Source: Pelagibacterales bacterium SAG-MED20
Lineage (GTDB): Bacteria > Pseudomonadota > Alphaproteobacteria > Pelagibacterales > Pelagibacteraceae
Reading direction: 5' to 3'
Assembly (NCBI GenBank): GCA_014653975.1
Contig: JACWDR010000003.1
Span: forward strand, 1 to 64,000
DNA length: 64,000 nucleotides
Shown here: positions 49,673-51,038 of the stretch, piece by piece
Numbering within the stretch: position 1 is the first letter of the stretch
Layout of the letters: the number at the start of each line of letters is the position of its first letter
Notes under the pieces: generated by a model
Databases searched by the model: none
The model's input: the letters and a program-made list of their open reading frames with translations, nothing else
What the model was told of the DNA's origin: nothing
Program-made: the position numbers and the translations under genes

Positions 49673-49747
49673 TATTTCCCCCCTTTTATATTAATAATAC
49701 TATTTTTAACCTTTTGACATCTACAGTTAAATGTGGTTCTATTACAC

Positions 49748-49798
49748 AGCGCTGATTTAAGTTAAATTGCAGAGCGCTTTACAAAACCTGCTAAAGCG
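49748..49798 (+). ncRNA. SAM-II riboswitch upstream of bhmT
   Basis: AGCGCU-GAUUUAAGUUAAAUUGCAG-AGCGCU-...-GCUAAAGC matches the SAM-II core (P1, GAUUUAA...UUGC, GCUAAA). Confidence 0.88.
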
Positions 49799-49805
49799 AC
49801 GTTTC

Positions 49806-49835
49806 AACCACCGCTTTAGCCGGTGGTTTTTTTTT
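49806..49835 (+). terminator. intrinsic terminator in the bhmT leader, after SAM-II
   Basis: aaccaccg-ctttagc-cggtggtt perfect 8-bp stem followed by a T9 run. Confidence 0.92.
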
Positions 49836-49854
49836 GAAATTTCTCAAATTTAAA

Positions 49855-49910
49855 CCGGGTATTTGAACCGTATTGTGCACCCAGCATTTGCTTAAGCACT
49901 AAAAAGGAGA
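49855..49910 (+). ncRNA. SAM-V riboswitch upstream of bhmT
   Basis: GGGU-AUUUGAACCGUAUUGUGC-ACCC-AGCAUUUGCUUAA-GCACUAAAAAGGAG: shared SAM-II/V core AACCGUAUUG and CUAAAAAGG strand. Confidence 0.85.
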
Positions 49911-49976
49911 GAAGAACTAATTTTTTAACCTCTTAGTTTAAATAAGTTCTTTTCTCCATTAACTTGGAGAAAAAAA

Positions 49977-51038
49977 ATGACAATAAATAAATTAACAGAA
50001 AGATTAGATCAAGGTCCTGTAATTTGTGCAGAGGGTTTTCTATTTGAAATTGAAAGACGGGGCTACATGGCATCAGGAGAATTTGTGCCAATGGTATCTT
50101 TAGACCATCCTGAAGTTCTGGAAAATTTACATAGAGAATTTCAACACGCTGGATCAGATATTGTTGAAGCTTTCACTTATAATGGCCACAGAGAAAAAAT
50201 GCGCGTTATTGGAAAGGAAGAACTTCTTGAACCTTTAAATCGTTCAGCTTTAAAGATTGCCAAAAAAGTTGCGCTAGATACACCCAAAGGATCTCAACCA
50301 AACTTAATGGCAGGAAATATTTCTAATTCAAATATTTGGAAAGAAGATGACAAACAAGCCCAAAATGTAGTTGAGGACATGTTTTCTGAAATGATTGGTT
50401 GGGCAGTAGATGAAGGTGCTGATATGTTGATTGGTGAAACTTTTTATTATGCTGAAGAGGCTTTTAAAGCACTTGAGGTAATGAAGAAAGCTAATCTTCC
50501 AACAGTATTAACAATTTCACCAATGGGTGAAAATAAAATGAGAGATGGAAAGTCTGTAGTTGATACATGTAAAGAGTTGGAGCAAAGAGGAGCTGACGTT
50601 GTTGGGTTAAATTGTTTTAGAGGACCTGCAACAATGTTGCCGTTTTTAAAAGAGATTAGAAAAGCAGTCAAATGCCATGTTGGTGCTTTACCAATTCCAT
50701 ATAGAACAAATGAGAAATTTCCAACTTTCTTTAATCTGCCTGATAGAGATGATTGTGGTTGTCCTTCACCTCATGGAAGAACATTTCCTACAGCTCTAGA
50801 TCCACACTTTTGTAATAGATATGAAATAGGTCAATTTGCAAAATGGGCAAATATTTTAGGTATACATTATCTTGGTGTTTGTTGTGGTGCTAACCCAATG
50901 TTGATAAGAGAAGTAGCTGAGTCTGTTGGCTTAAAAGTGCCTGCAAGTAAATACAGAGAAAATATGGAAAATCATTTTATGTATGGAAAGAACAAAAGAA
51001 TTCCAAAACATATGACTGATTATGGAGATAAGGCTTAA
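49977..51038 (+). CDS. bhmT: betaine-homocysteine S-methyltransferase
   Basis: GSDIVEAFTYNGHREKM, VGLNCFRGP, LGVCCGANPMLIREVAE; double SAM riboswitch leader. Confidence 0.93.
   Translation: MTINKLTERLDQGPVICAEGFLFEIERRGYMASGEFVPMVSLDHPEVLENLHREFQHAGSDIVEAFTYNGHREKMRVIGKEELLEPLNRSALKIAKKVALDTPKGSQPNLMAGNISNSNIWKEDDKQAQNVVEDMFSEMIGWAVDEGADMLIGETFYYAEEAFKALEVMKKANLPTVLTISPMGENKMRDGKSVVDTCKELEQRGADVVGLNCFRGPATMLPFLKEIRKAVKCHVGALPIPYRTNEKFPTFFNLPDRDDCGCPSPHGRTFPTALDPHFCNRYEIGQFAKWANILGIHYLGVCCGANPMLIREVAESVGLKVPASKYRENMENHFMYGKNKRIPKHMTDYGDKA

Follow-up and report, generated by a model that had tools for sequence, protein, structure and literature searches.

Bacteria of the SAR11 group rank among the most abundant in the sea, and S-adenosylmethionine (SAM) riboswitches precede their main methionine-making genes. 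How does such a riboswitch control a gene whose start codon lies far beyond its reach? We considered this question for the leader of bhmT, the gene for betaine-homocysteine methyltransferase, in a 64,000-nucleotide stretch of the Pelagibacterales bacterium SAG-MED20 draft genome (GenBank assembly GCA_014653975.1, contig JACWDR010000003.1, positions 1 to 64,000; hereafter the window). A SAM-II and a SAM-V riboswitch stand in tandem ahead of this gene. Our computational analyses support a leader that is probably SAM-repressed through two successive SAM sensors and an RNA relay, in which three strands – here called A, B and C – carry the signal of the second sensor to the ribosome-binding site of bhmT.

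The distance between SAM-V and bhmT

An earlier note on this DNA, made from its letters, had described SAM-II, an intrinsic terminator, SAM-V and bhmT in this order on one strand (the + strand, as for all features below), and Rfam searches, alignment and a terminator scan confirmed the arrangement. An Rfam search of the whole window matched SAM-V (RF01826) at 49848-49912 with 76.8 bits against a gathering score of 41 (E-value 7e-11), in agreement with the note's 49855-49910. The RF01826 alignment contains the traits of the family: helix P1 (GGGU 49857-49860 with ACCC 49879-49882), the P2 pseudoknot (UUGUGC 49873-49878 with GCAC-U-AA 49896-49902) and the tail UAAAAAGGAG. The exact pairs of P2, and those of helix P2a (CC 49868-49869 with GG 49906-49907), were placed by analogy with the SAM-V crystal-structure paper (PMC6061858). 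That paper proposes that SAM binding closes the two-base-pair P2a using part of the Shine-Dalgarno sequence (SD), and we take the captured part to be the two guanines of GGAG. The window's SAM-V would be expected to bind SAM.

The bhmT gene itself (49977-51038, 353 amino acids, 74-96% identical to its relatives) has an orthologue named bhmt in Candidatus Pelagibacter ubique HTCC1062 (PMC2704228), and its ATG at 49977, as the note had placed it, is the sole in-frame start. In the canonical SAM-V platform the tail GGAG is the SD of the gene and the start codon follows within ~10 nucleotides; the published distance is 'typically within ten nucleotides' (PMC2704228). The window departs from this arrangement. 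Its SAM-V GGAG (49906-49909) ends 67 nucleotides ahead of the bhmT ATG, which lies 71 nucleotides from the start of strand A, and a separate GGAG at 49966-49969 stands at a 7-nucleotide spacing from the ATG. At 76 metY and 33 mmuM loci the start codon lies 3-12 nucleotides from the SAM-V end, so the long platform sets bhmT apart within this genus. The second SAM-V of this genome (G000:C34:21677-21742, locus L039) lies immediately upstream of metY in the usual short arrangement.

Given the 67-nucleotide gap and the gene's own SD, SAM-V cannot cover the bhmT SD directly. Published work models the tandem as two-stage control, with transcription under SAM-II and translation under SAM-V (PMC9481103, PMC5069961), and the earlier note read it likewise. 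The anatomy fits these two stages. The published model also assumes direct masking of the bhmT ribosome site by SAM-V, and both the window and HTCC1062 have an anatomy that speaks against such masking. The note had considered both expression platforms readable from the sequence, which holds for the SAM-II terminator; the SAM-V platform, with its distant GGAG and a separate SD, is not of the usual kind. A 13-base-pair hairpin and the second SD, both overlooked there, lie between SAM-V and bhmT. The distant GGAG and the separate SD therefore call for an intermediate switch from aptamer to gene.

A proposed three-strand relay

Strand A (GGAGAGAAGAACU, 49906-49918) is the SAM-V tail and includes the SAM-V GGAG; strand B is AGUUCUUUUCUCC (49945-49957); and strand C (UGGAGAAAA, 49965-49973) includes the GGAG that probably serves as the SD of bhmT. 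Strand B pairs all 13 nucleotides of A, forming the hairpin, and 49950-49958 on the B side is perfectly complementary to C. Strands A and C are near-copies that occupy the same register on B. One strand is thus complementary to both the aptamer tail and the SD, in helices that exclude each other, as in a bistable anti-SD platform. Ordinary translational riboswitches exchange anti-SD and anti-anti-SD strands and share with this leader the mutually exclusive helices around the SD. Among SAM-V and SAM-II riboswitches we found no such strand-exchange platform in the literature searched, and in PMC2704228, PMC5069961 and PMC11508383 we found neither the second SD nor the A·B/B·C switch nor the antiterminator described below mentioned; the primary Poiata 2009 lay outside the scope of both the search and this comparison. 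The tandem riboswitch is already known, and what appears to be new is the variant SAM-V expression platform.

We propose that, in read-through mRNA without SAM, strand A pairs with strand B over 13 base pairs, which would leave the SD in C free and translation on. With SAM, SAM-V would close P2a and capture two guanines of strand A; the outer part of B would then branch-migrate from A to C, hiding the bhmT SD and turning translation off. The inner part of A·B would persist as a clamp. The relay makes a specific prediction – that the two guanines are the trigger and strand B the switch. The metY type of SAM-V shares the aptamer and the P2a sequestration of the two GGAG guanines (PMC6061858). 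In the metY and mmuM leaders of the genus, however, the GGAG that is captured serves the gene itself as SD, whereas in the window it would be a decoy copy, with a relay carrying the signal on to a second SD.

Folding calculations behaved as this prediction implies. With only the two P2a guanines blocked, the bhmT SD of the window had a paired probability of 0.94 instead of 0.14; as a mean of 37 leaders, the rise was from 0.55 to 0.95. Blocking two nucleotides just upstream, as a control, left SD pairing unchanged. The mean change in SD pairing was 0.52 in 22 leaders and 0.04 in 880 insert shuffles, and it exceeded 0.3 in 73% of the former versus 5% of the latter. Both direction and size of the calculated effect hold at 10-37 °C, and the free state of the window is less open in the cold (SD 0.45 paired at 10 °C). 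The off folds predicted for many leaders, that of the window among them, retain the inner part of the A·B helix and transfer the outer part of B to C.

Two other functions for the hairpin were considered and dropped. As a second terminator it was rejected, since no U tract follows it on the + strand. Its apical loop carries a conserved pyrimidine motif (CCUCUUA, 49929-49935; CCUCU, CCCUC or UUCCC across the window and its relatives) for which no pairing partner was found. Pairing of the loop CCUCU with strand A, as an attenuator-like third helix, was also discarded, as fragments of A plus loop showed no folding advantage over shuffles (mean z +0.34).

Conservation of the proposed relay and competing readings

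A scan of bhmT leaders, covering the named genomes with bhmT and the genomes of the genus (86 distinct rows), yielded 39 long leaders, 22 short leaders, 24 without SAM-V and one unsure case. Long and short forms interleave on the bhmT protein tree, with nine changes for the long form. The P2a strand reads CC in 55 of 58 long leaders versus CT in all 107 metY and mmuM leaders; we dropped CC as a marker of long leaders because short bhmT leaders, by eye, mostly carry it too.

For the covariation counts, an alignment of 30 distinct long leaders was anchored by register and restricted to strands A, B and C. Of the A·B cells, 91.7% are paired and 27 are double-changed, whereas shuffles gave 12.3 (none of 500 was as high); sliding the register always reduced both the number of paired cells and the covariation score. 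B·C is paired in 89.3% of cells. Of 397 family genomes, 82 carry the exact A-B-C pattern – SAM-V tail, then B, then SD – and none carries its reversed control; the geometry recurs in three genera ahead of two genes, bhmT and metY. In one of these genera (g4) the design precedes metY, behind an above-threshold SAM-V and a SAM-II-like stretch with a terminator, and C almost repeats A through the start codon of a small frame. The leader that we take to be that of HTCC1062, as its bhmT ATG at 1127292 adjoins the intergenic region 1127293-1127553 listed in PMC2704228, has the same gene, order, aptamers and terminator as the window (PMC2704228, PMC5069961, PMC11508383). Strands A and B are present there and C is shifted (GAGG).

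On balance, we favour a general form of this reading: that many SAR11 bhmT SAM-Vs, and those of metY in one genus, gate a three-strand exchange through two guanines of a decoy SD instead of covering the gene's ribosome site, and that the linker, being an antiterminator, keeps SAM-II silent in full-length RNA in vitro. If so, the mechanism usually assigned to the tandem riboswitch of P. ubique bhmT would need revising.

Several observations weigh against the relay. P2a has only two base pairs. For about one third of leaders the calculations predict a mostly paired SD even with A free, and the on state may require a particular order of co-transcriptional folding; because B is transcribed before C, A·B may have the advantage in the cell. 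Covariation of B·C is small, with one column double-changed in five of the 30 leaders' sequences, and B·C would therefore be supported mainly by complementarity and folding calculations; that complementarity follows in part from A and C both being SD-like. Finally, in leaders with an upstream open reading frame (uORF), which make up about half of the long ones in other lineages, translational coupling may add to the relay or replace it.

The coupling reading holds that SAM-V controls a short uORF whose translation opens the hairpin and feeds ribosomes to the overlapping bhmT start. About half of the long leaders, including HTCC1062, have a short frame beginning 3-11 nucleotides after the SAM-V GGAG (some others have a later TTG), and these frames end near or just after the bhmT ATG. 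In HTCC1062, whose uORF has 23 codons, and many relatives the start is an ATG, and a frame of 20-48 codons ends just beyond the bhmT ATG. The Mycobacterium tuberculosis B12 riboswitch, as outlined in PMC11260477, is a precedent for coupling through a uORF and resembles these uORF-bearing relatives. The window and its nearest relatives, by contrast, have no start codon at the uORF position, which rules out the mechanism for the window unless a non-standard start is used. The frame also shifts freely in metY leaders of genus g4, where stops break it in 3 of 37, yet the RNA pairing persists. We therefore regard coupling as a very unlikely account of this leader. Frames of 44-48 codons that end within 14 nucleotides after the bhmT ATG follow SAM-V in four loci (L167, L214, L250 and L257), three of which conserve ...LLTRVVYRSF.... 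In genus g4 (L275-L283, L286-L292 and L294-L296) the order is SAM-II-like element, terminator, SAM-V, two overlapping frames of ~17 and ~15 codons, and metY; the two frames are chained to metY, and the first is sometimes shifted or broken with its hairpin kept.

Distance translation offers another route: 30S subunits would be recruited at the SAM-V GGAG and shift to the ATG 67 nucleotides downstream, with A·B acting as a spacer or bridge. Reporter data underlie the same proposal for the Sinorhizobium meliloti metA SAM-II riboswitch (PMC9373788), where the riboswitch SD is likewise far from the start codon used (AUG2, 74 nucleotides downstream), and the SAM-V GGAG is retained in all aligned long leaders. 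However, AUG2 lacks a strong SD and a terminator lies between, whereas the window has a well-spaced SD (GGAG, 7 nucleotides) directly ahead of the bhmT ATG and a hairpin that is not a terminator. Distance translation also leaves the match of B to both A and C, and the calculated bistability, unexplained, and we consider it unlikely.

SAM-V might instead have no control over bhmT here, with the hairpin as a stability or insulating element and SAM-II as the sole regulator. Orphan leaders without bhmT do exist (L032 and L040). Against this, the SAM-V sequence is highly conserved and A-B-C recurs across the three genera and two genes, where an unused switch should decay; this is, in our judgement, the least probable of the alternatives. 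Both orphan leaders (L032, 1501-1640; L040, 690-770) have lost bhmT and strand C, keep SAM-V with strands A and B, and adjoin the same convergent HAD-family gene. A SAM-II and a terminator can be read upstream of the one in L032.

SAM-II, terminator and antiterminator

The SAM-II aptamer (49748-49798) scored below the Rfam gathering thresholds in the window, with 20.6 of 36 bits for RF00521 and 20.3 of 44 bits for RF01726, although 49739-49814 is the top RF00521 match of the whole draft genome. Its helix P1 (49748-49753/49773-49778) and P2 pseudoknot (UUGCAG 49767-49772 with CUGC(U)AA 49788-49794), with a GAUUUAA...UUGC...GCUAAAG core, are kept in 30 aligned leaders including HTCC1062, whose SAM-II core is almost letter-for-letter that of the window. 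The HTCC1062 element is reported to bind SAM with a dissociation constant of 1.2 µM, in the statement of PMC5069961 that cites Poiata 2009, and this experimentally tested SAM-II was likewise unlisted by the same Rfam search. Because it fails as well, the cut-off is too strict for SAR11 SAM-II, and we rejected the possibility that the low score marks a false match. Homology to the tested aptamer, rather than the Rfam score, is the basis on which we assign the window element to SAM-II. The covariance check suggested by the earlier note accordingly had a split outcome – the SAM-V model matches and the SAM-II models fall short – and such a failure is a poor test for refuting SAM-II, as the tested homologue fails it too.

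Downstream, the intrinsic terminator (49806-49835) consists of an 8-base-pair stem (49806-49813/49821-49828) and a U tract; four terminator-like sites were found in the region, two of them this terminator, against 0.1 expected in shuffles. The note's coordinates were right within a few bases.

The note's account did not include an antiterminator. The 3' strand of the SAM-II P2 pseudoknot makes up half of the segment GCUAAAGCG (49790-49798), and this segment is perfectly complementary to CGCUUUAGC (49812-49820), which includes the terminator loop CUUUAG. In the window, the calculated linker fold is the antiterminator at -16.4 kcal/mol, and blocking the P2 strand yields the terminator at -11.5 kcal/mol; the antiterminator is the minimum-energy linker fold in 30 of 30 leaders. 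Such a pair would give a standard off switch. Without SAM, GCUAAAGCG would pair with CGCUUUAGC and transcription would continue; with SAM, GCUAAAGCG would be kept in the pseudoknot and the terminator would form. The SAM-II aptamer binds SAM alone and not once joined to the linker (PMC11508383), and the conserved antiterminator may explain this loss of binding.

SAM-II of SAR11 is thus missed or under-scored by the Rfam SAM-II models (L249 and L258), the tested HTCC1062 element included, and the RF00521 model could be extended. SAR86-type bhmT genes (L174, L198 and L210, ~1350-1425) have a sub-threshold SAM-II-like element of 29-34 bits without SAM-V. Upstream of the window's SAM-II, a -35-like TTGACA (49714-49719) and a weak candidate -10 element, TCTATT (49738-49743), were unreported by a consensus promoter scan. 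They would place the 5' end of the transcript just ahead of SAM-II P1, and TTGACA stands in the same place upstream of the HTCC1062 SAM-II.
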